Source: an uncultured Bacilli bacterium (lineage in GTDB: Bacteria > Bacillota_I > Bacilli_A > RF39 > UBA660). Taken from it: DNA of 64,000 nucleotides. Shown one piece after another: positions 6,282 through 41,331 of this stretch (the stretch's first letter is position 1; each line of letters begins with the position of its first letter). Made by a program: the position numbers and the translations under genes. Where the stretch lies: contig CANQCR010000005.1 of the NCBI GenBank assembly GCA_947589735.1, forward strand, positions 1-64,000, written 5' to 3'. The notes beneath the pieces are model-generated. The model was given only the letters and a program-made list of their open reading frames with translations, made no database searches and was not told where the DNA came from.

Positions 6282-7127
6282 TCACTTTCCTTGATATTTA
6301 ATATATTCATCATATACTTCACTTTTTTTAAGATGCCGTTCTTTAGCAACTAATTTAATTGCATCTTTGCTATTATAGCCTTCATCTAAATATAAATTAA
6401 TGTGATCAATTAAAGACATCGTAAAAGTTTTAACCTCACTATTACCTTCTAAAACCACAACTAATTCCCCTTTAAAGGTGTAATTTGCTTTAATAATTTC
6501 TTCAATTGTTCCACGATAAACTTCTTCGTATTTTTTAGTTATTTCCCGGGAAATAGCTATTTTTCGATGTGGTCCAAAAACTTCCATAAAGTCCTTTAAT
6601 GTATCGTTGATACGATGGGGAGCTTCATAAAAAATAAGGGTTGCTTTTTCATCTTTTAAAGCTTCTAACTCCTTAAGACGAAGAGATGCCTTACTATTTA
6701 AGAAGCCATAAAACATAAAAGGTTTAGGATTAAGACCCGACATAATTAAAGCAGGAATTAAGGCATTAGCGCCTGGTAAGCCAACGACATTGTATCCTTC
6801 TTCTATAGCAAAACGAGCTAATTCGAATCCGGGATCACTTATAACAGGCGTTCCCCGGTCACTTACAAGACCGACATTAAGGCCATCACGTAAGTATTCT
6901 AATAATTTATCTTTATTAGTTACTTCGTTATGATCGTGATTAGATATCATTTTTTTAGAAATATCTAAATACTTTAAAAGTTTACCTGTTTCTCTTGTAT
7001 CTTCACAAAATAAAACATCAACTTCTTTTAATGTTTGAACACTCCGATAAGTCAAATCATCCATATTGCCAATCGGGGTGGGAATTAAATATAGTGTTGG
7101 TGTTTTATCATAACTTTTTTGCGACAT
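6282..7127 (-). CDS. rsmI: 16S rRNA (cytidine(1402)-2'-O)-methyltransferase
   Basis: LYLIPTPIGNMDDLTYRSVQTLKEVDVLFCEDTR...VSDRGTPVISDPG...LPGANALIPALIMSG. Confidence 0.96.
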   Translation of the reverse strand: MSQKSYDKTPTLYLIPTPIGNMDDLTYRSVQTLKEVDVLFCEDTRETGKLLKYLDISKKMISNHDHNEVTNKDKLLEYLRDGLNVGLVSDRGTPVISDPGFELARFAIEEGYNVVGLPGANALIPALIMSGLNPKPFMFYGFLNSKASLRLKELEALKDEKATLIFYEAPHRINDTLKDFMEVFGPHRKIAISREITKKYEEVYRGTIEEIIKANYTFKGELVVVLEGNSEVKTFTMSLIDHINLYLDEGYNSKDAIKLVAKERHLKKSEVYDEYIKYQGK

Positions 7128-13025: not shown

Positions 13026-13041
13026 CGTTTCACGTGAAACA
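13026..13041. promoter_or_regulatory. parS-like centromere site
   Basis: Minus-strand reading TGTTTCACGTGAAACG contains the 14-bp palindrome GTTTCACGTGAAAC; 15/16 match to TGTTTCACGTGAAACA. Confidence 0.85.
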
Positions 13042-20780: not shown

Positions 20781-22127
20781 CTATTTTATTCGATTAATTA
20801 TTTTCTGAATCTCATTGTTTAAAGCTTCATCTTTTAAGATTTCATTTTTAATTTTATTAACAGCGTGCATAACGGTTGTATGGTTTTTACCACCAAACTC
20901 AATCCCTATTTTAGTTAAGTTTTCTTCTAGATAAACTCTACATATATACATCGCAATCATTCTTGGAATGGCAATCTCACTTGTTTTTTTCTTACTTTTT
21001 AAGTCTTCGGGACTAATTTTATAATTGTCACTTACTAATTGAATAACTTGATCAATTTTGTTTTTAGCAACAACTCTGACACTAAAGTGATCTTGCAAAG
21101 CTTCAACAGCTAAATCTAGGGTTATGTCTTCCCCACCCATACAAGCGGAATAAGCATATACTCTAACAATAGCTCCTTCAAGTGTTCTAATGTCACCTGC
21201 ACAATTACTAGCAATATACTCTTTAACGTCTTCAGGAAAATCATTACTAATCCCCTGTTGTTCTAGTTTTTTATTTAAGATATTCATCCTTAGTTCAAAT
21301 TCTGGTGGTAAAATATCAACTTGAAGGCCCCCTTTAAAGCGGGTTTTTAAACGCTCTTCTAACTTTTTAATATCTTCGGGAGAACGATCAGATGAGATAA
21401 TTATCTGTTTTCTATTATTATATAGTTCATTAAAGGTGTTAAAAAACTCTTGTTGAGCAAATACGGATGTGACAATATTTTGAATATCATCAATAATTAA
21501 AACATCGACATCGCGGTATTTATCTTTAAACTCTCTTACTGCTTCTTTGTTATCACCATTATTATTTTTTCTGCACATTTCGACGAATTCATCGACAAAC
21601 TTATCACATGGAATATATAACACGCGTTTATTACTGTTTTGAACAATATAGTTACCAATAGCGTGCATCAAATGTGTTTTACCTAGTCCACTTGATCCAT
21701 AAATAAAGAATGGATTATACATATTACCTGGTTGTTCAGCAACAGCTAACGCACTAACAGCAGCAAACTTATTACTATTACCAACAATAAAAGTATCAAA
21801 GTTATAGTCAGGATTTAAACCAGATTTAAATTTTTCATTAACCCCTATTTCATTCGTATCAATGACGATATTTGATGTTAATTCATCTTCTGTACAAAAC
21901 TCGAATTTAAAATTGGTTCCCGTTAACTCTGTGAAGTTTTCTTCAATTAAATCAATGTAGTGATCAGCAAGTTGTTTTTTATGTACAATGGTTGGAACAG
22001 ATATTTTAGCTAAATTATTATCCAAAGATATCAATTTAGCTTCTTTAAACCAAGTTTCATATGAGATATCATTCATTTGTCCTTTTATTTTTTCTAAAAA
22101 GGAGTTCCAAATACTTTCTAAGTCCAT
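20781..22127 (-). CDS. dnaA: Chromosomal replication initiator DnaA
   Basis: NPFFIYGSSGLGKTHLMHAIGNYI, VLIIDDIQ, GKNHTTVMHAVNKI. Confidence 0.98.
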   Translation of the reverse strand: MDLESIWNSFLEKIKGQMNDISYETWFKEAKLISLDNNLAKISVPTIVHKKQLADHYIDLIEENFTELTGTNFKFEFCTEDELTSNIVIDTNEIGVNEKFKSGLNPDYNFDTFIVGNSNKFAAVSALAVAEQPGNMYNPFFIYGSSGLGKTHLMHAIGNYIVQNSNKRVLYIPCDKFVDEFVEMCRKNNNGDNKEAVREFKDKYRDVDVLIIDDIQNIVTSVFAQQEFFNTFNELYNNRKQIIISSDRSPEDIKKLEERLKTRFKGGLQVDILPPEFELRMNILNKKLEQQGISNDFPEDVKEYIASNCAGDIRTLEGAIVRVYAYSACMGGEDITLDLAVEALQDHFSVRVVAKNKIDQVIQLVSDNYKISPEDLKSKKKTSEIAIPRMIAMYICRVYLEENLTKIGIEFGGKNHTTVMHAVNKIKNEILKDEALNNEIQKIINRIK

Positions 22128-24772: not shown

Positions 24773-25654
24773 ATGAACTATTTAAGTAGACAAAACTTAC
24801 CTAATATTGTTAGGACATTTCAAAAGACTAAAAAGTTACCATCTGATTTAGTATCATATCAAAAAGTATTAACGATTGCGTGTAGTCATACAAATTATTC
24901 TATTACTATGAATGAAGTTATATTAGCGCTTGCTTTTGCTTTAAAGGATGATAAAGTGATAGAAAAATATTTTGTTACCTATGCAGAAATATTTCATAAT
25001 GATTATTTCACGATTGAAAATGAAAGATTACAAGGTTCCCGAAAAGAAAATTTTGATATAAATAATCCCTTACTTTTAAAAATTTTAAGTTATATAAAAA
25101 AAAGATTTATAGAAGATTATCCCTTTTTTGGTGATGGGTATTTAGTTTACTTTATTAATATGATTCATACTTTATCGACTGATTTTAGTGATTCTTTAAA
25201 AAAAAGCTTAATGCCATATCGATCAGAAGCTCCAAACGCTGGAGTTATTAATAGTAGTATGAAATATTTAATAATGATGATTTTAGACGGTAAATTAACT
25301 AAAAAGGATATAATGAATCTTAAAAATATTAATTTTGAAATAGGACTGTTATTAGAAAATAATTTTTTACTTCTTCGTTCATTAGGTCCTAAAGAAAAAC
25401 GAGTAACATCGACGCGTCTTCGTAATCTCGTTGTTGAATTTGCTAGTTATTTATTAGAATATCTATTATTAGAACAAGATATTAGTAAATATTATACCTT
25501 TCCTAGTTTGTTAGAAATAGCGACTAAAGAGCCAAAAGATTTATTTTTTAAAAAATTTGATGATATAACAGTTTCAAATCGTAATGCTTTTTTTGATACA
25601 TATATATCATCATTACAATTTGAAAAAAGTAAGAAATATGTTTATTCTAATTAA
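24773..25654 (+). CDS. Uncharacterised protein, tandem paralog A1
   Basis: Open 293-aa ORF; shares MNYLS..LP, ALA.A, LSTDFS and LL..YLLLE features with the next ORF. Confidence 0.75.
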   Translation: MNYLSRQNLPNIVRTFQKTKKLPSDLVSYQKVLTIACSHTNYSITMNEVILALAFALKDDKVIEKYFVTYAEIFHNDYFTIENERLQGSRKENFDINNPLLLKILSYIKKRFIEDYPFFGDGYLVYFINMIHTLSTDFSDSLKKSLMPYRSEAPNAGVINSSMKYLIMMILDGKLTKKDIMNLKNINFEIGLLLENNFLLLRSLGPKEKRVTSTRLRNLVVEFASYLLEYLLLEQDISKYYTFPSLLEIATKEPKDLFFKKFDDITVSNRNAFFDTYISSLQFEKSKKYVYSN

Positions 25655-25722
25655 TAAAAAATAATATTAATTAAATATTGTTATTTTGTGTTATAATATC
25701 TTATATGTACAGGAGGTTTTAT

Positions 25723-26670
25723 ATGAATTATTTAAGTAAAAAATATTTACCGGAGACATTTCTTAATTTTAAACTTTTTAATCTTTTACCGGTTAAATTA
25801 GAAAAATATCGTGGGGTTTTAGAAATTACTTTTGATCATACCCAATATACGCCTAGTATGCGTTCTGTTGTTTTAGCGCTTGCTCTAGCTAATCATGATA
25901 ATGCTGTTTTACGTGATTATTTTGAAAGGGAATATTATAATTTTATTGATGATAAAGGGTTACCATCAAAAGATGTATATCAAAATGTAACTGAGTATTA
26001 TCATCAAATATATGATACAAGAATGGAACATTTTGACTTTGATGCCCCATTATTTAAGCAAATCCTTTGTTATGCGAAAATACCTTTTTCGGAATGGAAA
26101 GAACATTTTAACAATAGCTATATGGAAACATTTAAAGACATAATTATTGTTTTATCAACTGATTTTTCTAAGTTAGATCAAAACACCAATCTTTCTCGTG
26201 CTTTAATGGAAAATCGTGCTGTCGATGAAACAATTAACTCACTTCTTTTTATGATTGCTAATAGTCATCTTAGTAAAGAAGATGTTGCTGAAATTAGTAG
26301 GATTAATCCTTGGATAGGAAAATTATTAATGTCTAATATTGATGTTCTTTTAAGCTTTAAAAATCTTGATAATAAAGGTAAGGCTCATTTTACGCCTCTT
26401 CATATGAAGATGAACTTTGCAGGATACTTACTATCTTATTTACTTTTAAATGTTTCAGAAGAAGAATATGGTATTTTTGAAGATGTTATGTTAAAAGAAT
26501 TACCAGCTAAAAAAGATCAAGATGCTTTTTTAAGTTCTTTCTTACACTTATATTCTAGTGTAGATAAGAAAAATGCTATTATAAAAGAAATGGTTGATAA
26601 ATATCGTAAATCTAATTTAACGACTGAAAAAGATAAACAATATGTTTTTGATACCAAACCAAACGATTAA
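25723..26670 (+). CDS. Uncharacterised protein, tandem paralog A2
   Basis: Internal Met (MNYLSKKYLPETF) with RBS AGGAGG; paralogous to the 24773 ORF. Confidence 0.77.
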   Translation: MNYLSKKYLPETFLNFKLFNLLPVKLEKYRGVLEITFDHTQYTPSMRSVVLALALANHDNAVLRDYFEREYYNFIDDKGLPSKDVYQNVTEYYHQIYDTRMEHFDFDAPLFKQILCYAKIPFSEWKEHFNNSYMETFKDIIIVLSTDFSKLDQNTNLSRALMENRAVDETINSLLFMIANSHLSKEDVAEISRINPWIGKLLMSNIDVLLSFKNLDNKGKAHFTPLHMKMNFAGYLLSYLLLNVSEEEYGIFEDVMLKELPAKKDQDAFLSSFLHLYSSVDKKNAIIKEMVDKYRKSNLTTEKDKQYVFDTKPND

Positions 26671-28273: not shown

Positions 28274-29629
28274 ATGGAAGATACAATTGCAGCTATTGCT
28301 ACATCTTTAGGTGTCGGCGCTATTTCGATTATCAGAGTAAGTGGTAATGACGCTATTAAAATTGTTAATAATTTATTTAAAGGTAAAGATTTAACAAAAG
28401 TTAGTAGTCATACAATTAATTATGGTCATATTCTTGATCAAGATAAAATTGTTGATGAGGTTTTAGTATCCGTTATGCGCGCACCTAAAACGTTTACACG
28501 AGAAGATGTCGTTGAAATAAATGTTCATGGTGGGATTGCTACGACTAATAAAGTATTAGAACTATTACTTACGAATGGATGTCGTTTAGCCGAACCTGGT
28601 GAGTTTACTAAAAGAGCTTTCTTAAATGGTCGAATTGACCTTGTTGAAGCTGAAGGCGTAATGGATTTAATCAATGCTAAAACTGATAAAGCTCGGGATT
28701 TAGCTATTAATCAAGTAAGTGGTTCGGTATCTAATTTAATTAAAGAATTACGCCAAAGTTTAGTTGAAATTCTTGCTAATATCGAAGTTAATATCGATTA
28801 TCCTGAATATGAAGATATCGAAGTAATGACGATTGAAATGATTAAAGATAAGCTTAAAATGATTAAACAAAAAATTAAAGAAATATTAGATAAATCCCAA
28901 AATGGTAAAATTGTTAAAGATGGCATTAAAACCGTTATTATTGGACGACCTAATGTTGGTAAAAGTAGTATTTTAAATCGTCTTTTAGAAGAAGATAAAG
29001 CTATTGTTACTGATGTAGCGGGAACAACGAGGGATATTGTTGAAGGGCGGATAACTATTGATGGTATCGTTTTAAATATTATTGATACCGCCGGTATTCG
29101 TAAGACCGATGATTTAGTTGAAAGTATTGGTGTTAAAAAGAGTTTATCACTCATTGATGAAGCTGATTTGATTTTATTTGTTTTAAATAATAATGAATCT
29201 TTAACTAAAGAGGATGAAGAGATTCTTAAAAAGATTAAAAAGCATAATAGTATTGTTATCATCAATAAAATTGATTTAGCTAATAAAATTAACATTGACG
29301 CTATTGATAACGACAATATTGTTATGTTATCAGCCTTAAATAATGAAGGAATTAATGATTTAAAGGCGACGATTAAGAAAATGTTTAATCTAGAGCAAAT
29401 TGAACAAGAGGATTATACCTATCTTAGTAGCGCTAGAAGTATTGCTTTATTAAAACAAGCTTCAAAAGCTTTAGATAATGTTGAAGAAGGCGTTAATAAT
29501 AATATGCCAATTGATATGGTTGAGATTGATCTTAAAGATGCTTGGAACTTATTAGGTGAAATTATTGGTGCTAATTATAGTGAAGAACTAATTGATCAAT
29601 TATTTAGTCAATTTTGTTTAGGAAAATAG
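28274..29629 (+). CDS. mnmE: tRNA uridine-5-carboxymethylaminomethyl(34) synthesis GTPase MnmE
   Basis: MEDTIAAIATSLGVGAISIIRVSG; IGRPNVGKSSILNRLL; C-terminal FCLGK. Confidence 0.98.
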   Translation: MEDTIAAIATSLGVGAISIIRVSGNDAIKIVNNLFKGKDLTKVSSHTINYGHILDQDKIVDEVLVSVMRAPKTFTREDVVEINVHGGIATTNKVLELLLTNGCRLAEPGEFTKRAFLNGRIDLVEAEGVMDLINAKTDKARDLAINQVSGSVSNLIKELRQSLVEILANIEVNIDYPEYEDIEVMTIEMIKDKLKMIKQKIKEILDKSQNGKIVKDGIKTVIIGRPNVGKSSILNRLLEEDKAIVTDVAGTTRDIVEGRITIDGIVLNIIDTAGIRKTDDLVESIGVKKSLSLIDEADLILFVLNNNESLTKEDEEILKKIKKHNSIVIINKIDLANKINIDAIDNDNIVMLSALNNEGINDLKATIKKMFNLEQIEQEDYTYLSSARSIALLKQASKALDNVEEGVNNNMPIDMVEIDLKDAWNLLGEIIGANYSEELIDQLFSQFCLGK

Positions 29630-29650
29630 GGGAGTAATCCTCTTTTTTTG
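29628..29650 (+). terminator. Terminator between mnmE and mnmG
   Basis: AGGGGA-gtaa-TCCTCT-TTTTTT. Confidence 0.7.
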
Positions 29651-29719
29651 TGAAAAAATTATTGTTTAATTATCAAAAAGATAGTATACTATCAAAGGAA
29701 GTTCAAAGAGGTGAGGTCA

Positions 29720-31591
29720 ATGTACGAAATTATTGTTGTAGGTGGTGGTCACGCCGGATGTGAGGCCTCACTTGCTAGTGCTAGAAAAGGACATAAGACT
29801 TTATTAATAACGGGTAATATTAAAAATATTGCTGATATGCCATGCAACCCATCCATTGGTGGTAGTGCAAAAGGTATTGTGGTAAGAGAAATTGATGCCT
29901 TAGGTGGCGAAATGGGTAAAAATGCTGATAAAAGTCTCTTACAAATAAAAATGTTAAATAGCGCTAAAGGACCGGCTGTTCAAGCCTTGCGTGCTCAAGC
30001 AGATAAAATAACTTATCCTAAAGAAATGTTAAAAACTTTAAAAAGTACACCTAACTTAGAAATAAGAGAAGCGATGGTGGAAGATTTAATTGTCACGGAT
30101 GGTGTAATCGGTGGTGTATGTTTAGCTGATGGAGAGAAAATTACTTCTAAAGCTGTTATTCTAACGACAGGAACATATTTAAAAGCCGATATTTTAGTGG
30201 GTGATACAAGAACGCGTCAAGGTCCTCATGGTGAGAAACCAAGTAATTTTTTAAGCGATAAATTAAAAGAATATGGATTCAATGTTATTCGCCTTAAAAC
30301 TGGTACGCCACAACGAATTGATAGAAGTTCGATTGATTTTTCTAAAACAAAAGTTGAAGAAGGCGATCAGACTTATCATACTTTCAGTTTTGATATGGTG
30401 CCTCAATATGAAATTGATAAGCAAGTTCCATGTCATTTGATTTATACAACCGAAGAAACGAAAAAGATTATTTTAGATAACTTAAATAAATCAAGTATGT
30501 ATGGAGGACTATCAGATATTAAAGGTGTTGGTCCAAGATATTGCCCATCCATTGAAGATAAAATGGTTCGTTTTAAAGATAAAGAGAAGCATCAATTGTT
30601 TTTGGAACCAGAAAGTTTATATTATGATGATATCTATGTTCAAGGATTTTCAACGAGTATGCCAAAAGACATCCAAGATAAAATGGTTCATAGCTTACCA
30701 GGATTAGAACATGCTAAAATATTAAAATATGCTTATGCTATCGAATATGATGCAATTGATTCTCGTCAGTTAAAACAAAGTTTAGAGACTAAAGTTATTG
30801 AAAATCTTTATACTGCTGGTCAAATAAATGGTACAAGTGGCTATGAAGAAGCAGCTTGTCAAGGTTTAATGGCGGGTATAAATGCAAGTTTGAAACTAGA
30901 GGGTAAGGAACCACTCATTTTAAAACGAAATGAAGCATATATCGGAGTTTTGATTGATGATCTTGTAACTAAAGGCATTATTGACCCATACCGTTTATTA
31001 ACCTCTCGAGCTGAATATCGCCTATTATTACGTAGTGATAACGCTGATATGCGTTTAACGGATTATGGATATAAGATTGGTTTAATAAGTGAAGATAGAT
31101 ATGCTCGTTTTAAAGAAAAAATGGAGCAAATTAAAGAGTTAGAAGAAACATTAAAGAATAATAAAATTACTCCAACTGAAGAAACAAATAAGTATTTAGA
31201 AACTATTCCAACAACACCATTAAAAGATGGTATAACATTGTATGATTTTCTAAAACGACCAGAAATAACTTTCGAACATGTGAAACATTTTATTTCCCTA
31301 AATTATTCCGATGTTGTTTTAGAACAAATATTAATTAATACTAAGTATGAGGGTTATATTGTTAAAGCTAATAAAGAAGCTTTAAAAATGGTTGACTTAG
31401 ATAATAAAAAAATACCAGATGATATTGATTATGACAAAATTCATAACCTTGCAAGTGAAGCTAAACAAAAATTAAAACAGATAAGACCTACTTCTATTGG
31501 TCAAGCAATTCGTATTAGTGGTGTTAATCCAGCTGATATTTCCCTAATTATGGTTTATTTAAAAAAGGAGTACTTCTATGAATCAAAGTGA
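29720..31591 (+). CDS. mnmG: tRNA uridine-5-carboxymethylaminomethyl(34) synthesis enzyme MnmG
   Basis: MYEIIVVGGGHAGCEASLASARKGHKTLL; CNPSIGGSAKGIVVREIDALGG; GTSGYEEAACQGLMAGINA. Ends in TGA. Confidence 0.98.
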   Translation: MYEIIVVGGGHAGCEASLASARKGHKTLLITGNIKNIADMPCNPSIGGSAKGIVVREIDALGGEMGKNADKSLLQIKMLNSAKGPAVQALRAQADKITYPKEMLKTLKSTPNLEIREAMVEDLIVTDGVIGGVCLADGEKITSKAVILTTGTYLKADILVGDTRTRQGPHGEKPSNFLSDKLKEYGFNVIRLKTGTPQRIDRSSIDFSKTKVEEGDQTYHTFSFDMVPQYEIDKQVPCHLIYTTEETKKIILDNLNKSSMYGGLSDIKGVGPRYCPSIEDKMVRFKDKEKHQLFLEPESLYYDDIYVQGFSTSMPKDIQDKMVHSLPGLEHAKILKYAYAIEYDAIDSRQLKQSLETKVIENLYTAGQINGTSGYEEAACQGLMAGINASLKLEGKEPLILKRNEAYIGVLIDDLVTKGIIDPYRLLTSRAEYRLLLRSDNADMRLTDYGYKIGLISEDRYARFKEKMEQIKELEETLKNNKITPTEETNKYLETIPTTPLKDGITLYDFLKRPEITFEHVKHFISLNYSDVVLEQILINTKYEGYIVKANKEALKMVDLDNKKIPDDIDYDKIHNLASEAKQKLKQIRPTSIGQAIRISGVNPADISLIMVYLKKEYFYESK

Positions 31592-32279
31592 TTTTATTAA
31601 AGAAGTAGATGCATTAGGAATAAAATTAACGGATAAGCAACTAAACCAATTAAATCTTTATTATGAATTACTAGTAGAATATAATAAAAAAATGAACTTA
31701 ACCGGTATAACCATTAAAGAAGATGTTTATTTAAAACATTTCTATGATAGTTTAACAATTGTTAAGGCGATAAATCTTAATGAAGTAGATACCTTATGCG
31801 ATATTGGAAGTGGTGCTGGATTGCCGGGAATAGTTTTAAAGATTGTATTTCCCAACTTAAAAGTATTACTTATAGACTCCTTAAATAAAAGGGTTGAATT
31901 CTTAAAAATTGTTATTTCCAAACTCGGTTTAACAAATATTGAAGCCCTTCATTATCGAATTGAGGAATATGGTATTAAAAACCGGGAAATATTTGATGTC
32001 GTAACAGCAAGAGCTGTAGCTGGAACCAATATTTTGTTAGAATATGCCGCATCATTAGTTAAAAAGAATGGCTATTTTATCCCTTTAAAAGGTCATAAGG
32101 AAGATATAACATTATATGAAAAAGCTTGTCAAAAACTCGGTTTAAAGTTGGATGAAGAAATATCCTTTTTATTGCCCGTTGAAAATAGTGAGCGAACTAT
32201 TTTCAAGTTTAAAAAGGTATCATCAACGCCACAAAAGTATCCGCGGAAGAATAGTGAAATAAAAAAGCGTCCATTATAA
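31578..32279 (+). CDS. rsmG: 16S rRNA (guanine(527)-N7)-methyltransferase
   Basis: KMNLTGI; LCDIGSGAGLPGIVLKIVFP; VTARAVA. Confidence 0.97.
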   Translation: MNQSDFIKEVDALGIKLTDKQLNQLNLYYELLVEYNKKMNLTGITIKEDVYLKHFYDSLTIVKAINLNEVDTLCDIGSGAGLPGIVLKIVFPNLKVLLIDSLNKRVEFLKIVISKLGLTNIEALHYRIEEYGIKNREIFDVVTARAVAGTNILLEYAASLVKKNGYFIPLKGHKEDITLYEKACQKLGLKLDEEISFLLPVENSERTIFKFKKVSSTPQKYPRKNSEIKKRPL

Positions 32280-32294: not shown

Positions 32295-32378
32295 ATTTAA
32301 TTTATTATTTCCCAAAAAATATTGTATTATTTCCCGAAATATATTATAATTATTGATAGAATAGAAGTGAGGTTGGAA

Positions 32379-34994
32379 ATGAACGATACGCGAAATAAAA
32401 TCGTTGAGTTAAATTTGAATGATATACTTCCTAATCGTTTTCAGCCTCGAATCCAATTTAATGAGGAAGCGATTATTGGATTATCAGATTCAATTCGCGA
32501 GCATGGTGTTTTAGAACCAATCATTGTACGACCAATTGGCGATAAATATGAAATAGTAGCAGGCGAAAGAAGATATAAAGCCTGTGTTTTAGCGAATTTA
32601 GAAACAATTCCTGCTAGAATTATTGATATGAGTGATCATGATAGTGTTGAAATAGCTTTGATTGAAAATGTTCAACGTCGTGATTTAACACCAATTGAAG
32701 AAGCTTTATCTTATAATCGTATCCTTGATATGGGTTATTTAACACAGGAACAATTAGCTCGTAAATTAGGTAAAAGTCAATCAACTATCGCTAATAAGAA
32801 ACGTCTTTTAAACTTGTGCGATGAGGTTCAATCTGCTTTAGTTGAGGAAAAAATTTCGGAAAGACATGCTAGATCTTTACTTAAACTTAGTAACGCTAAT
32901 GCTCAAAAAAGAATGTTAAATCGGATTATTGATGAACGTTTAACTGTAAGACGCTTAGATGAAGAAATTGAAAAAGAATTAGCATTAATGACGCCGGAAG
33001 AACAATTAGAAGAAGTGGCTAATGCTCTACTTAATGTAGAAGACGATGTTCAAGAAGATTCAATTATCGATATTTCAAACTTATTTGATGATGATATTAA
33101 GCCAATTGAATCTTTAGATAAACCAACAACTTCAATGTCATCTAGTCCAGCTATTTCTGAAATTAATACTAATGTTTCTAACAATATTGAAAGTGCTCCA
33201 ACACCTACATTAGAAACATCAATTAATCCAGCATCAGCACCAATGAATAGTGAAACGGAAAGTGTTCCAACACCAAGTCCACATATTGAGCCTCTACCAA
33301 GCTTAATGCCTACTATTCATCAGTTTGTAGAAACAATAGCTCCGGAATCAATGGATAATCCAATCATGACAAACGAGACAACAACATCTATTTCACCAAC
33401 CCCAGAAATGCCAGTAGTTGAACCAAGTCCAATGACGATGGCGCCAGAATTAACTAGTGAACCAATTACTAATGATGTGTCATCTCCATCAATTACTGAG
33501 GTGAATAGATTTAATAAATTTATTGCTCCAGAATACAAGAATGAAGATCCTGATAATAAACTAGATCCATTAATAGCGCCAGTAATAGAAAATCCTAATG
33601 GAACTAGTGAACCAAGTGTTGAACCTATTGCGCCACCAGATAATCTTACCCCAACAACGATGTTTTCAAACTTAATGAATAATAATCCGGTGCAAGAGAG
33701 TGAAAATGTTCCTATTAATCAAGATGATTTAAACAATTTCTTAGATCCATCTATTATTGATGGTCAAAAACAGGAAGTGCCTGAAAATATTGATATTATC
33801 GATGCTTCCGTATTTGCTAGGTTCTTAGATCCTGATTATGATATAAACAGTATAGATAATGAAGAAAAAGAGGAGGTTAAACCTATGTCATTTGCTCAAT
33901 ATTTAAATAATGATAACAGTAATGATCAAGTTCAAACGACGCCAATGACGCCATCACCAAGTGCTCCAGATATGCTAGCACCACAAGGAACCCCATCATC
34001 AATGCCAGATATGTTAGCGCCACAGAGTCAACCAAGTGCGCCAACAGGTTTTGATATGCCAAAACCAGACTTAATGGCAACGATGGATTCTAATTATAAT
34101 CCAACAGCAATGCCACAAGCACCAGCAGTACCGGACATGTTAGCACCAGCGGAAACGCAAGCTCCAGATATGCTAGCACCACAAGAAATCCCATCACCAA
34201 TGCCAGATATGTTAGCGCCACAGAGTCAACCAAGTGCGCCAACAGGTTTTGATATGCCAAAACCAGACTTAATGGCAACGATGGATTCTAATTATAATCC
34301 AACAGCAATGCCACAAGCACCAGCAGTACCGGACATGTTAGCACCAGCGGAAACGCAAGCTCCAGATATGCTAGCACCACAAGAAATCCCATCACCAATG
34401 CCAGATATGTTAGCGCCACAAAGCGCACAACAAAGTTTGAATCCAAGTATGGGCGTTGGAGGATCAACTTTAACTCCTGATACTTCTTTTGGTTTAGCGC
34501 CTGAAGTAGAAACACCAACAGAAACGCCACTTACTGAAAGTTATCAAGTACCACAAGAAACAAATCAACCTGGCTTTGTTATGGCTACAAGTGATCAACC
34601 AAATTATAATATGCCATCAACACCAGTGATGGATACAAATACAAATGCTTTATTCCAACCGCCAGCTCCAGAAGAACAAGCTCCTGTAGAAACTCCAGCT
34701 CCAGTTGTGGATTTACCACCAGCCGAGACGGAGATAACAGCTGAGCCAACTGACGAAGACATAAGCCGTTCACAAGCGGAAATTCAGCCAATTATTGTTA
34801 CTGATTATGAGAAACAATATGATCCTTTATTACCTGATAATCCAGCTAATATGGAGCCAAAAGTTGATTTACGCCAAGTTATTGATATGATAAGATCATT
34901 AAGTAATCAAATTGAAGATTTAGGCTTTAAAATTGATACCGAAGAGGTTGATTTTGATGATTCTTATAAAGTAACTTTTGTGATTGAAAAATAA
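32379..34994 (+). CDS. parB: ParB/Noc-family partition protein with very long Pro-rich linker and divergent C-terminus
   Basis: LNLNDILPNRFQPRIQFNEEAIIGLSDSIREHGVLEPIIVRPIGDKYEIVAGERRYKAC; IENVQRRDLTPIEEA; HTH LTQEQLARKLGKSQSTIANKKRLL. About 580 residues of low complexity follow. Confidence 0.93.
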   Translation: MNDTRNKIVELNLNDILPNRFQPRIQFNEEAIIGLSDSIREHGVLEPIIVRPIGDKYEIVAGERRYKACVLANLETIPARIIDMSDHDSVEIALIENVQRRDLTPIEEALSYNRILDMGYLTQEQLARKLGKSQSTIANKKRLLNLCDEVQSALVEEKISERHARSLLKLSNANAQKRMLNRIIDERLTVRRLDEEIEKELALMTPEEQLEEVANALLNVEDDVQEDSIIDISNLFDDDIKPIESLDKPTTSMSSSPAISEINTNVSNNIESAPTPTLETSINPASAPMNSETESVPTPSPHIEPLPSLMPTIHQFVETIAPESMDNPIMTNETTTSISPTPEMPVVEPSPMTMAPELTSEPITNDVSSPSITEVNRFNKFIAPEYKNEDPDNKLDPLIAPVIENPNGTSEPSVEPIAPPDNLTPTTMFSNLMNNNPVQESENVPINQDDLNNFLDPSIIDGQKQEVPENIDIIDASVFARFLDPDYDINSIDNEEKEEVKPMSFAQYLNNDNSNDQVQTTPMTPSPSAPDMLAPQGTPSSMPDMLAPQSQPSAPTGFDMPKPDLMATMDSNYNPTAMPQAPAVPDMLAPAETQAPDMLAPQEIPSPMPDMLAPQSQPSAPTGFDMPKPDLMATMDSNYNPTAMPQAPAVPDMLAPAETQAPDMLAPQEIPSPMPDMLAPQSAQQSLNPSMGVGGSTLTPDTSFGLAPEVETPTETPLTESYQVPQETNQPGFVMATSDQPNYNMPSTPVMDTNTNALFQPPAPEEQAPVETPAPVVDLPPAETEITAEPTDEDISRSQAEIQPIIVTDYEKQYDPLLPDNPANMEPKVDLRQVIDMIRSLSNQIEDLGFKIDTEEVDFDDSYKVTFVIEK
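33963..34427 (+). repeat. 198-bp (66-codon) near-perfect tandem repeat inside parB, two full units plus partial third
   Basis: GCTCCAGATATGCTAGCACCACAA recurs at 33963, 34161 and 34359 (spacing 198 bp each); encodes PDMLAPQ-rich units. Confidence 0.95.
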
Positions 34995-35266: not shown

Positions 35267-36121
35267 ATGAATCAAGATAAAATGCATTTAATAAATAAAA
35301 TATTTAATAATGAAACCATTAGAACTGTTTGGGATAAGGAACAAGAAAAATACTTTATAAGTATTGTCGATATAGTTGGCGTTGTTTCAGAAAGTGATAA
35401 TCCACAAACATACTGGAGGGTGCTCAAAAAGAGACTTAAAGATGAAGGAAATGAAACCGTTACAAATTGTAACGCTTTGAAACTTAGAGCTAAAGATGGT
35501 AAATATCGTTTAACTGATGTTGTTGATATTGAAGGAATGTTTAGAATCATTGAATCAATTCCTAGTAAGAATGCGGAACCAATAAAGCAATGGCTTGCAA
35601 AATTAGGCAGAGAAAGAATTGATGAAACATTTGATCCTTCGCTAGCAGCCCAAAGAGCGATAGACTTATATAGATCTAAAGGTTATGATGAAAAATGGAT
35701 TGCAAAAAGAATTAAAGGTATTCAAGATAGAAAGCAACTTACTGATGTATGGAAAGATGGAGGTATAACTGAATCAAAAGAATATGTGATTCTAACAAAT
35801 GAAATTTATAAAGAATGGTCTGGCATGACTGCAAAAGAGTATAAATCATTTAAAGGACTTAGGAAAGAATCACTCCGAGATAATATGTCTGATGTTGAAG
35901 TTGCACTTGCAGATTTAGGAGAAATAGCAACAAGAGAAATTGCTAAAAAGAAAAATCCAAAAGGTTTAAATGAAAATATTGAAGTAGCAAGACGTGGTGG
36001 CAAAATTGCTGGCAATACAAGAAAAGACTTAGAACACGAAATAGGTGAGAGTGTTGTTACTAGTAATAATGCATTAAACTACGAATATGTAGATAAAAAA
36101 GAAATTGAAATGAAAAATTAA
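35267..36121 (+). CDS. BRO-N domain protein (phage antirepressor/DinD-like)
   Basis: TIRTVWDKEQEKYFISIVDIVGVVSESDNPQTYWRVLKKRLKDEG...RLTDVVDIEGMFRIIESIPSKNAEPIKQWLAKLGRERIDE. Confidence 0.82.
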   Translation: MNQDKMHLINKIFNNETIRTVWDKEQEKYFISIVDIVGVVSESDNPQTYWRVLKKRLKDEGNETVTNCNALKLRAKDGKYRLTDVVDIEGMFRIIESIPSKNAEPIKQWLAKLGRERIDETFDPSLAAQRAIDLYRSKGYDEKWIAKRIKGIQDRKQLTDVWKDGGITESKEYVILTNEIYKEWSGMTAKEYKSFKGLRKESLRDNMSDVEVALADLGEIATREIAKKKNPKGLNENIEVARRGGKIAGNTRKDLEHEIGESVVTSNNALNYEYVDKKEIEMKN

Positions 36122-37411: not shown

Positions 37412-37443
37412 AAAAGGGATAGAAAATTAATTCTATCCTTTAA
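37412..37443 (-). terminator. Terminator of the large secreted-protein gene
   Basis: Minus strand AAAGGATAGAA-ttaat-TTTCTATCCCTTTTTG. Confidence 0.7.
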
Positions 37444-40400
37444 TTTCTTGGACAACCAACGAAATTACCATTTTTATCTGGTTTAACATAAGCTAGGGCT
37501 CTTGATCTAGCTGTTGAGTTATGTCCTACACAGCTACCCTCTAACCTTGTTCCACCGTGATCATTTTTAAATGTATCATTAGCTAACAATGATAAGAATC
37601 TACTAGCACAATATTTATAAACATCTTGTCCTTCGATACTTGTATCAGTTGTTGCATTTAAGCCACTATAATTAACACAATAGTATCCAATATAACCAGG
37701 AAGATTACTAATATTTTCTATGTCGTTATCATTATCAAACATCCGCATTTCTGTGTATGGATCAGCAGCATTGTATGTTCCTGATGCAGATCTTGCTTGA
37801 CGATTTAATTCTCTAATATAGCGAATATTAGTTGTATTTAATTCAAGAGAATACATTGGTTCTTTTCGGTAGATGTCTTCACTTAATACATCTTCTACTT
37901 CAGAATCTGTAAGTTTAGCCCAGTTACGACCTCTTATACGGCCTGTTCCTAAAATACCAGGGAAGGCATTATCAACAACGTTTTTATTTGGCGTGATATT
38001 GGTTGAAGAGATTAAATCAATAACTCTAAAGACAACATCAATATCTCTAATATAACGTCTTCTATTATATGGATTATCTGGATCATCGTTAGGATCAGGG
38101 TCACCAGATTCAACTTTATCATCATCTTTTGGATCACAATATGCTGGAGAATCATCGGTTAAAACTAAATTACCCATTGAATCTTCTTCATATTTACAAT
38201 CGTTACCGAATAATTCATTAATAATTCTAAATGGACAACCATATTTTAATTTTGTTGAACCAAAGACTTTTTGTAGTAACATATCAAAGTGGGTTTCAGC
38301 TATAGCTCCATTATTTTCTTCTTCGTCACCAAAATCTTTAGTTGATATACCAGCTTTACCATTTATATTAGTTTTAGTACCTAAATGGTCAAATGTTAGT
38401 TTTAACAAGCCATCAAATTTTCCATCGCCGTTACCATTTTTATCTACCCAATCAGCACCATATGTACCATTTGGAGTCATAAAGGCGGTTGGAAGACCAT
38501 AACCTAACCATTTATACCAAGGAAGACCTTTAGATCCGGCTGGTTTTTTAACAATATCTTGTTTAGCTTCTGGTTCACCTGTTGACTTATTACCATACCA
38601 GTTTAATGGGTCATGGTAAACAATATTATATGTTGCATAAGTTGTTAGATCATCTGGAGTTAAATATTTGTCACAGTTAGGGTCGTTATTACCACATGTT
38701 ACCCCAACGATATCTTGAGTTTGAACAGGGTGAAGCCAATCGATACTAACATCATGATTTACATCGGAATATTGATATTCTTCTAGTGGATCAACATAGT
38801 CGATTTGTGTAGTATTACGATCGCCAACTTGGGCAGTCTCAATCCAATCATCGACGCTATAATCAACTCTAATATTACTACAGTTTGGTTTATATTGTGA
38901 GCCATCAGCGAGTAATATATTATCTTGACGAACAACACACTTCTTAGTGAATGTAATTGTACCTAAAACATTATTTTTAGTATCACGTTTTAAGCCCCAT
39001 TTGAAGATAGTACCAGCTCTAATAGCAGGATTATCACTATCATCTGTTCCTGTTCCTACTTCACCTGGAAGAGAGAACTTAACTTGTTCACTACAATATA
39101 AGTTACAAACATCGTTGCCAGAACCTACTTTTTTAGCCCAGCTTCCAACAATACCTGTTTGATTTCCATTTGCATCAAGGTTAGTATAAGCAAATCCTTT
39201 TTGCCAACATTTTATAGCCTCTTCGTTATTTTCCCCAAAAACATAGTCTTCTAAAACAATATTTTTATTTTCTGATTCACAGGTGTTATCAATATCTTCG
39301 TTAGCTGGACAATTTATGATTTCTTCACATCTTGGACCATCACGACCAACAACTGTCCACCAACGTTCTAGTAATAATAACGTATCTTGACCTGCTTTAT
39401 CTGTACCATAAAACTTACTTACTGCATTGTGTAACCAGTTGAAATACTCTTTATAGTCGGCTTGTAATGCTGCATCAGTTTCTCGATTTTTATAAGCGAT
39501 TTTGTGAACGCGGTTAACATTATCTTGAACACATTGAACAATAGGGCATCCTGTTCCGCCATTTGAGGTATATTCAGGATAGAAATATGGATTTAAACGT
39601 CGTTGTGTTTTCATATAAATAGTGTGAAATTCTGATTGCTCATAATTAGCTTCTGTTATCATTTGCTCGCCCTTAACATCATCTTTAGACCAAGCAATTA
39701 AAGCTTCTTCATAACTACCATAGCGTTCATCTTTAGAAATGGTACATCTATCACCAGGGTTTTTACCGCAGGCATCATATATTGCTCTTGCTTTTTGACC
39801 ACAAGTAATTTTAGATCCGCAGTTGAAGCCTTTGTTTTCTGTGTGGTCATATAAGAATTTTGCTTGTTCGTAAGTATAGTGTTTAACGAACCAAAGTCTT
39901 TCATCGCCCCAAGCACTGAAATCTTTTTCTAGAGAGTCATATAAATCTTTATCTCCTCGTTGTAAAGATTTTTGAAGGGCTGTTGCACATGGGTCAGGTG
40001 TGAACCAAAAGTTTAAAAGACTAATGGTATCTTTTCTTTGGTAGAATTTCTTTAAAGTAGAGCTTGCTATTGAAGATCCAATAGGCAATTTTGGAGAAAG
40101 ACTATCAGGGTCTTCACTACTCCATCTGTCATCGTCGCCGTCCCCTACAGGCCATGATTTTTCTTGAGCAGCTGTTGATAGATTAATATTCCATCCTTTT
40201 TGAGGTCCTACGGAAGCAAGTATATAGTTACAAGCTGTTGGAGGATTATATGGATCGTGAGAATAATATCCAAATTGTTCACCAACACCATTATCACACA
40301 TCCACATTACTTCTGTAACTGATCCGGCCATATATAAAGTCCTATTGTTTTGATTCCAAGTTCGTAATACTAAATCTTGTTCAAATAAGATGAAAGTATT

Positions 40401-41210
40401 TTGAACTGACCAGTATGGTAGGGCGGCTGCGTCAATTTGTTTTTTACCATCTGTTCTACCAGCAACCCAACCATAACCATAGAAAGAACGTGTGAATATA
40501 TTATTGAATACTGTATAGTTTGGTACAGGATAATTTTTACAATAACTAGAATCCTTATCTGGTTGTTGTTGACAGTTAAGATATTTAATTATCGCAAAGT
40601 TCATATTTTGTGGTTGATACCAAGAAGCTGTATCTGTGATCCATCTATCACTCCACTCTTCGTACCAATCCCAAGCACCCAAAGGAAGTCCTAAGACATC
40701 CATTTTTAAATATGGACCTTTGGTAGTTACGCCGTATAAACCATTACTTGAACTACTTCCTTTAAGATCGTTTTTACCAAGTATTTCTAGTTTAGTAGGT
40801 TTATTGTTATTTCCACCATTACCATTACCTGTTGTAAAATAGGCGGTATTACCTTCGTTTCCAAGGCCTTCATCTTTAGCACTTTTCCACCAATAATCAT
40901 ATGAAACTGATGGAAGTGTTCCACTACCAGAAACTTCGTCAAGTTTCCCATCCTTGTTACTATCTGTTTCTCTCCGGCACATTTCTCCAGTTGCGGGGTC
41001 GTAGTTACAACGTTTACCAGTTTCTTTATCTACGATGGTTATTCGAAAGCCAAGTCCAAATCCGGTACACCAACCAGTTTTACAACTATTATCCGTCTGT
41101 CCGGTACCTCCACCTCCGTGATCATCAGATGCATTTAACTGAGTCGTATTAACCAAAAACAGTAGTGCGAAACACATTGTATAAATAAGATATTTTAATT
41201 TCTTTTTCAT
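37440..41210 (-). CDS. Large secreted Cys-rich protein of unknown function
   Basis: MKKKLKYLIYTMCFALLFLVNTTQLNASDD signal peptide; about 1256 aa, about 32 Cys in the mature part, no C-terminal anchor; Asp-rich calcium-loop-like DSNKDGKLDE and DKNGNGDGKFDG. Confidence 0.8.
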   Translation of the reverse strand: MKKKLKYLIYTMCFALLFLVNTTQLNASDDHGGGGTGQTDNSCKTGWCTGFGLGFRITIVDKETGKRCNYDPATGEMCRRETDSNKDGKLDEVSGSGTLPSVSYDYWWKSAKDEGLGNEGNTAYFTTGNGNGGNNNKPTKLEILGKNDLKGSSSSNGLYGVTTKGPYLKMDVLGLPLGAWDWYEEWSDRWITDTASWYQPQNMNFAIIKYLNCQQQPDKDSSYCKNYPVPNYTVFNNIFTRSFYGYGWVAGRTDGKKQIDAAALPYWSVQNTFILFEQDLVLRTWNQNNRTLYMAGSVTEVMWMCDNGVGEQFGYYSHDPYNPPTACNYILASVGPQKGWNINLSTAAQEKSWPVGDGDDDRWSSEDPDSLSPKLPIGSSIASSTLKKFYQRKDTISLLNFWFTPDPCATALQKSLQRGDKDLYDSLEKDFSAWGDERLWFVKHYTYEQAKFLYDHTENKGFNCGSKITCGQKARAIYDACGKNPGDRCTISKDERYGSYEEALIAWSKDDVKGEQMITEANYEQSEFHTIYMKTQRRLNPYFYPEYTSNGGTGCPIVQCVQDNVNRVHKIAYKNRETDAALQADYKEYFNWLHNAVSKFYGTDKAGQDTLLLLERWWTVVGRDGPRCEEIINCPANEDIDNTCESENKNIVLEDYVFGENNEEAIKCWQKGFAYTNLDANGNQTGIVGSWAKKVGSGNDVCNLYCSEQVKFSLPGEVGTGTDDSDNPAIRAGTIFKWGLKRDTKNNVLGTITFTKKCVVRQDNILLADGSQYKPNCSNIRVDYSVDDWIETAQVGDRNTTQIDYVDPLEEYQYSDVNHDVSIDWLHPVQTQDIVGVTCGNNDPNCDKYLTPDDLTTYATYNIVYHDPLNWYGNKSTGEPEAKQDIVKKPAGSKGLPWYKWLGYGLPTAFMTPNGTYGADWVDKNGNGDGKFDGLLKLTFDHLGTKTNINGKAGISTKDFGDEEENNGAIAETHFDMLLQKVFGSTKLKYGCPFRIINELFGNDCKYEEDSMGNLVLTDDSPAYCDPKDDDKVESGDPDPNDDPDNPYNRRRYIRDIDVVFRVIDLISSTNITPNKNVVDNAFPGILGTGRIRGRNWAKLTDSEVEDVLSEDIYRKEPMYSLELNTTNIRYIRELNRQARSASGTYNAADPYTEMRMFDNDNDIENISNLPGYIGYYCVNYSGLNATTDTSIEGQDVYKYCASRFLSLLANDTFKNDHGGTRLEGSCVGHNSTARSRALAYVKPDKNGNFVGCPRN

Positions 41211-41331
41211 TTTATCACCCATCTTATATCCTCTATTATTAATTATTTATACACTACGGTATACTAATAAAATTGTATCAAAAAATAAGGGTAATGTAAA
41301 TACCATATTTGAAAGATATATTAATTTGAGT

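Follow-up and report, generated by a model that had tools for sequence, protein, structure and literature searches.

A long-linker, family-wide variant of the Noc clade in uncultured Bacilli, with candidate binding sites near the origin

The window analysed here is a 64,000-nucleotide stretch (positions 1 to 64,000 of contig CANQCR010000005.1) from an uncultured Bacilli bacterium. Directly behind mnmE-mnmG-rsmG, which is the noc position, it carries a very long open reading frame related to parB and noc. The main features of the locus are as follows.

20781 to 22127, minus strand: dnaA, which marks the origin region
28274 to 32279, plus strand: mnmE-mnmG-rsmG, the genes 5′ of noc
32379 to 34994, plus strand: noc-like gene, with a GAGG ribosome site directly 5′ of the ATG at 32379
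32379 to 32954, plus strand: CTPase N-terminal domain and NBS-type DNA-binding domain (GKSQSTIANKKRLLN...ERHAR, giving Q/K/N/R at 173/179/184/201)
32955 to 34847, plus strand: disordered acidic linker of ~630 aa (residues 193 to 823)
34848 to 34991, plus strand: Noc-type C-terminal domain, predicted helix-strand-strand

The frame at 32379 to 34994 encodes 871 aa, just as the initial annotation had described, and has no internal stop; an alternative, longer TTG start at 32322 falls within the putative promoter/operator. The encoded protein consists, in order, of ParB_N (residues 7 to 99, E 1e-30), HTH_ParB (residues 102 to 199, E 3e-30), the ~630-aa linker and a folded C-terminus of ~48 aa. Both domains and the CTPase motifs GERRYKAC and ENVQRRDLTPIEEA are present, and the ParB-type CTPase clamp core recognized earlier is thus borne out. 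Elsewhere in the window, a Bro-N domain protein, probably of mobile-element origin, lies directly downstream of noc (35267 to 36121), and positions 37440 to 41222 encode a predicted secreted protein of 1260 aa with no Pfam match. Two adjoining ORFs of ~300 aa near the origin (24773 to 26670) look mutually related (MNYLS near the start) and have no Pfam match either, and a fragment of an IS110-type transposase (Transposase_20) occupies 166 to 540.

Several lines of evidence place the giant protein with Noc rather than with ParB. The gene lies directly downstream of rsmG in 67 of the 76 relatives in which this could be checked. Its best PDB matches are the Noc structures 7ng0 and 7nfu, the matching solved chains being of 146 to 255 aa and covering the front domains only. 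Its specificity residues are Q173, K179, N184 and R201 (numbering as in PMC7383237), three of which match the Q-K-K-R set of Noc. Since NBS is read by the Q and the R, and one Lys at either 179 or 184 is enough (PMC7383237), the set is of the Noc type despite Asn184. Q173, K179 and R201 are near-invariant among relatives with a readable motif. In a quick tree of 98 core domains, ParB and Noc were split with a support of 100, and the giants formed one group within the Noc side (SH-aLRT 93). Neither ParB-type specificity residues nor a ParB-type C-terminal domain was found in the giant protein. The NCBIfam model for Noc (TIGR04285) gave the giant 261.5 bits, below the curated cut-off of 315. It separates Noc from ParB poorly here, because the ordinary ParB of the same genome scores 234.5 bits.

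The C-terminus had been described as non-canonical. Its tail sequence was given correctly and does differ from that of ParB, but the domain is not odd, being an ordinary Noc C-terminal domain. In the profile comparison, it matched the C-termini of outgroup (short) Nocs at 96.8% (E 2e-10) and those of ParBs at 9%, where the ParB set included two stray Noc sequences that could only have raised the ParB score. Folded alone, the C-terminal 64-aa stretch reached a mean pLDDT of 86, with 92 to 96 across the domain. A fold search of this domain against the PDB returned nothing better than chance, and when its profile was run against PDB sequences, no C-terminal domain of a ParB or a Noc came up. The place of the gene, the specificity residues, the tree and the C-terminal domain together make a firm sequence-based case that the giant protein belongs to the Noc clade by descent. 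We treat it as a variant within this clade rather than a standard Noc, since the N-terminal helix and dispersed sites were both looked for and neither was found. Thus, annotation of a ParB by length and tail sequence alone can mislead.

The unusual length is a property of the whole family. All 12 genomes of the genus of the window carry one giant (542 to 956 aa) and one ParB of ~294 aa, so that the survey of related genomes proposed earlier returned two distinct size classes. A ParB/Noc match was obtained in 116 of 117 genera surveyed in the family, with nearly all listed giants at 340 to 730 aa, and nearly every genome of the family has one giant (about 340 to 960 aa) beside a normal ParB. 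Most Noc open frames from other Bacilli families in a class-wide sample are of 253 to 306 aa, and one genome (G174) is a clearly giant exception.

The giant chain begins ~6 residues ahead of ParB_N and thus lacks the N-terminal membrane helix; no comparable amphipathic helix was found in the window protein or in the relatives compared. Many outgroup Nocs begin with short hydrophobic tags of the MNIF, MNLF or MGLFDFLG type. In Bacillus subtilis Noc, F5, R7, F8 and F9 of the N-terminal amphipathic helix are each required for membrane binding (PMC4331003).

The linker is long and disordered, as the initial annotation held, although it measures ~630 aa and not 580. It contains 16% Pro, 9% Glu and 8 to 9% each of Ser, Thr and Asp, has a net charge of -91, and shows a pLDDT of ~30 over most of its length in the full-length AlphaFold2 model. 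Across the family, linker length ranges from 81 to 690 aa and the sequences are mostly unalignable. Nonetheless, the linker is not featureless, for it contains conserved motifs as well as a tandem repeat.

33069 to 33086, plus strand: DISNLF, similar to a family motif D-[hydrophobic]-[DNS]-x-L-[LFM]
33507 to 33536, plus strand: membrane-tag-like motif 1, RFNKFIAPEY (F-x-K-F-I)
33726 to 33752, plus strand: motif 2, DLNNFLDPS (predicted short helix, residues 448 to 455)
33807 to 33842, plus strand: motif 3, SVFARFLDPDYD (F-x-R-F-L; predicted short helix, residues 476 to 483)
33885 to 33905, plus strand: motif 4, MSFAQYL (predicted short helix, residues 506 to 512)
33963 to 34420, plus strand: tandem repeat with a 198-bp unit, 2.3 copies at 98% (PDMLAPQ... 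units)
34800 to 34835, plus strand: conserved motif TDYEKQYDPLLP, directly 5′ of the C-terminal domain

The spacing F-x-[KR]-F-[FLI] is that of F5-x-R7-F8-F9 in the B. subtilis Noc helix. The window protein holds two exact copies (33507 and 33807) and two looser ones (33726 and 33885), and three of these four tag-like motifs (2 to 4) are predicted by AlphaFold2 as short helices amid disorder. Among seven proteins of the clade of the window, the exact pattern occurred 13 times against 0.05 expected from shuffles. Outside this clade the tag-like motif is looser, with [KR]FF[ND] in 33 of 81 proteins. NPGF[VM]DVD, TDYxKQYDP, P[TS]TPI and [KR]FF[ND] were likewise well above shuffles among relatives, and the enrichment of linker motifs over local shuffles was 10 to 200-fold. 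A ranking of the window protein by hydrophobic moment did not single out the linker motifs.

Two candidate operator sites of the form TATTTCCC, 22 bp apart, precede noc, and one of them fills the 17-bp spacer of a promoter that was read by eye and was not reported by the promoter scanner.

32306 to 32319, plus strand: TATTTCCCAAAAAA, the second half-site of the operator, 22 bp 5′ of the first
32322 to 32350, plus strand: putative promoter, weak TTGTAT-17 bp-TATAAT, with the NBS-like site TATTTCCCGAAATA as its spacer

Such upstream sites occur in about half of the relatives fetched, usually paired, and a pair at 20 to 23 bp is kept in ~24 of them. This arrangement suggests autorepression of noc. 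A loose search with TATTTCCCGAAATA gave counts below control, the operator excepted. Extra TATTTCCC/GGGAAATA half-sites lie within mnmG and rsmG, upstream of noc (31240 to 31990); close relatives share two of these positions (about -450 and -590), and for the reversed control no position is shared.

Perfect NBS palindromes are few in this family and, where placed, mostly near the origin. The window holds a perfect NBS and a parS.

6541 to 6554, no strand assigned: perfect NBS ATTTCCCGGGAAAT, within rsmI (Ile-Ser-Arg-Glu codons)
13026 to 13041, no strand assigned: parS CGTTTCACGTGAAACA, between tadA and gyrA, where relatives hold a composite parS/NBS

An NBS within rsmI was present in three of four congeners examined; the copy in the window uses the uncommon codons TCC and CGG, each accounting for ~7% of the codons of its amino acid. 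A second perfect NBS of this genome is on contig C16, which is unplaced on the map. The perfect palindrome ATTTCCCGGGAAAT was found in 98 of 117 genera, as compared with 0 of 117 for a reversed-pattern control. At least one (G105) of the 19 genera without it has ATTTCCTGGGAAAT instead. Five genomes with long contigs (G047, G059, G049, G041 and G024) have one NBS each, ~15 to 26 kb from noc on the upstream (oriC) side; G002 has two, one at the same ~15 to 26 kb and the other at 71 kb. In G105, scanned over 764 kb of its 1.04-Mb contig, the only four sites with up to two mismatches to the consensus are at 56.8, 60.7, 64.2 and 77.3 kb, within a span of 21 kb at oriC, and dnaA lies at ~74 kb, where the GC skew flips. 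A search for dispersed NBS with two mismatches gave 5 sites in the genome of the window against 5 in the control, and 49 against 40 in the genus. The counts in the genome of the window equal those of the control and so give no hint of several dozen dispersed sites. Clustering of candidate NBS near the origin is strongly indicated for the family, and it may hold for the window's own genome as well.

Many relatives combine the two palindromes. An exact-match search for parS and NBS separated by 4 to 34 bp (parS first) hit 57 of 291 genomes, representing 45 of 150 genera, and its reversed control gave 0; all 30 composite loci examined adjoin gyrA, tadA or dnaX. The genome of the window has no composite, its parS and NBS being 6.5 kb apart. 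Between gyrA and tadA, some relatives carry tandem arrays with units of about 79, 66 or 125 bp. NBS and parS alternate there in G033 (L180:16641-17648; ~79-bp units, at least 12) and in G015 (L189:934-1107; 66-bp units), and G121 has parS-NBS pairs at the same place (L181:7358-9163). Some of these arrays reach contig ends, so the sizes seen may fall short. Outside the family, a class-wide Bacilli sample of ~341 genomes gave one composite. That match, with a 34-bp gap, lies in family f19 (G506:C33:33317-33378) and may have arisen by chance or independently. As sequence features, the composite sites of the family are firmly established. Our search of the non-subscription literature found no report of a long-linker Noc or of composite parS/NBS sites.

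Taken together, we consider it likely that the giant protein is a Noc-clade CTPase clamp, distinct from the chromosomal ParB, with origin-proximal sites. Giant clamps would load with CTP at NBS palindromes beside parS near the origin, and would then slide and gather on origin DNA. The protein would probably repress its own promoter through the NBS-like operator sites. The arm between the DNA-binding and the C-terminal dimerization domains would stand in for the lost N-terminal helix, and the arms of many clamps would jointly tether the origin region to the membrane or to a membrane-located partner, thereby possibly keeping division away from it. For the membrane step through the linker arm, we put the chance a little short of even. 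More tentatively, Noc may here have given up chromosome-wide occlusion and become a second centromere clamp, in which internal copies of the tag would let a few sites anchor like the ~70 of B. subtilis.

The same origin-bound Noc clamp could use its linker motifs to dock a protein partner (e.g., FtsZ, SMC, DnaA or a divisome protein) rather than the membrane, a reading that we regard as a serious possibility, if somewhat under an even chance. The linker motifs lie in acidic surroundings (net charge -91), whereas the known membrane helix has basic flanks, and they may for this reason bind protein. Besides, TDYxKQYDPVLP, NPGFVDVDKI and PTTPI are kept at the sequence level beyond the needs of a simple amphipathic helix, and in Staphylococcus aureus the role of Noc extends past membrane tethering to the control of replication initiation (PMC5540599). 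In contrast, the motif spacing is that of the known membrane helix, and precisely this helix is missing from the N-terminus family-wide.

It is improbable that the giant works like a short Noc and that its linker is a low-complexity expansion of little or no selective effect. The variable length, the mostly unalignable sequence and a fresh 198-bp tandem duplication making up part of the linker would all fit such drift. Yet the elongated form is present in nearly every gene-bearing genome examined, the motifs far exceed local shuffles, and a normal Noc would fail without its N-terminal helix, which is required in B. subtilis (PMC4331003).

The initial annotation had taken the giant for the ParB of the chromosome, whose long linker could alter the partition complex, and had named a second, normal ParB as what would speak against it. 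The ParB-type CTPase core is in keeping with this view, but a normal parA-parB pair lies on the same contig at 79.8 kb, 47 kb from the giant gene, and its ParB has 294 aa. The second ParB is present in all genus genomes, with ParA adjoining in the genome of the window. The ParA-contact box LG[KR]GL occurs in 21 of 23 normal ParBs and in none of 81 giants, and the giant gene has neither this box nor an adjoining parA. Together with the Noc residues, the C-terminal domain and the tree position, these observations overturn the assignment and leave it with a very small probability; the altered partition complex falls with it, since the giant is not the ParB of that complex. Least credible of all is an assembly artefact or frame error, which the 98%-identical 198-bp repeats in a draft genome of 26 contigs might have suggested and which is ruled out by equally long open frames in independently assembled relatives, one of them (L060/L059) with 956 aa and a repeat of the same type; the copy number of the 198-bp repeat may still be off by one unit.

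These findings suggest that a single loading region close to the origin can serve both members of a ParB/Noc pair, in which case the two paralogous CTPase clamps would use different palindromes side by side. In this family one could study, in a natural setting, competition or cooperation between adjacent clamps and the need of Noc for numerous dispersed sites, as well as the way in which a disordered arm might take over membrane targeting from an N-terminal helix.

The giants resemble the Nocs of B. subtilis, Geobacillus and S. aureus in their position behind rsmG, CTPase core, C-terminal domain and palindrome ATTTCCCGGGAAAT, and in three of the four NBS-type recognition residues. Unlike those proteins, they lack the N-terminal amphipathic helix, have a linker of 81 to 690 aa in place of a short one, and have few perfect NBS, mostly within ~25 kb of noc/oriC. 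In comparison, the roughly 70 sites of B. subtilis cover most of the chromosome (PMC4331003), and of the 41 loci of S. aureus only one lies outside the origin-proximal half (PMC5540599). With the chromosomal ParB (Spo0J)-parS system, they share a paralogous clamp and candidate sites that lie beside or interleaved with parS; they differ from it in DNA specificity, in the C-terminal domain and in lacking the ParA-contact box, the ParB of these genomes being the separate 294-aa protein. The closest likeness in size is the elongated Noc of G174 (L154; 681 aa), from another Bacilli family, which was lengthened independently and has three perfect NBS near noc. In contrast to the giants, it keeps an N-terminal helix (MALFNRKDK), and its C-terminal domain sits where a normal Noc has it, with an acidic tail of ~400 aa behind it that ends in DGFWNLFK (G174:C1:112000-120000).
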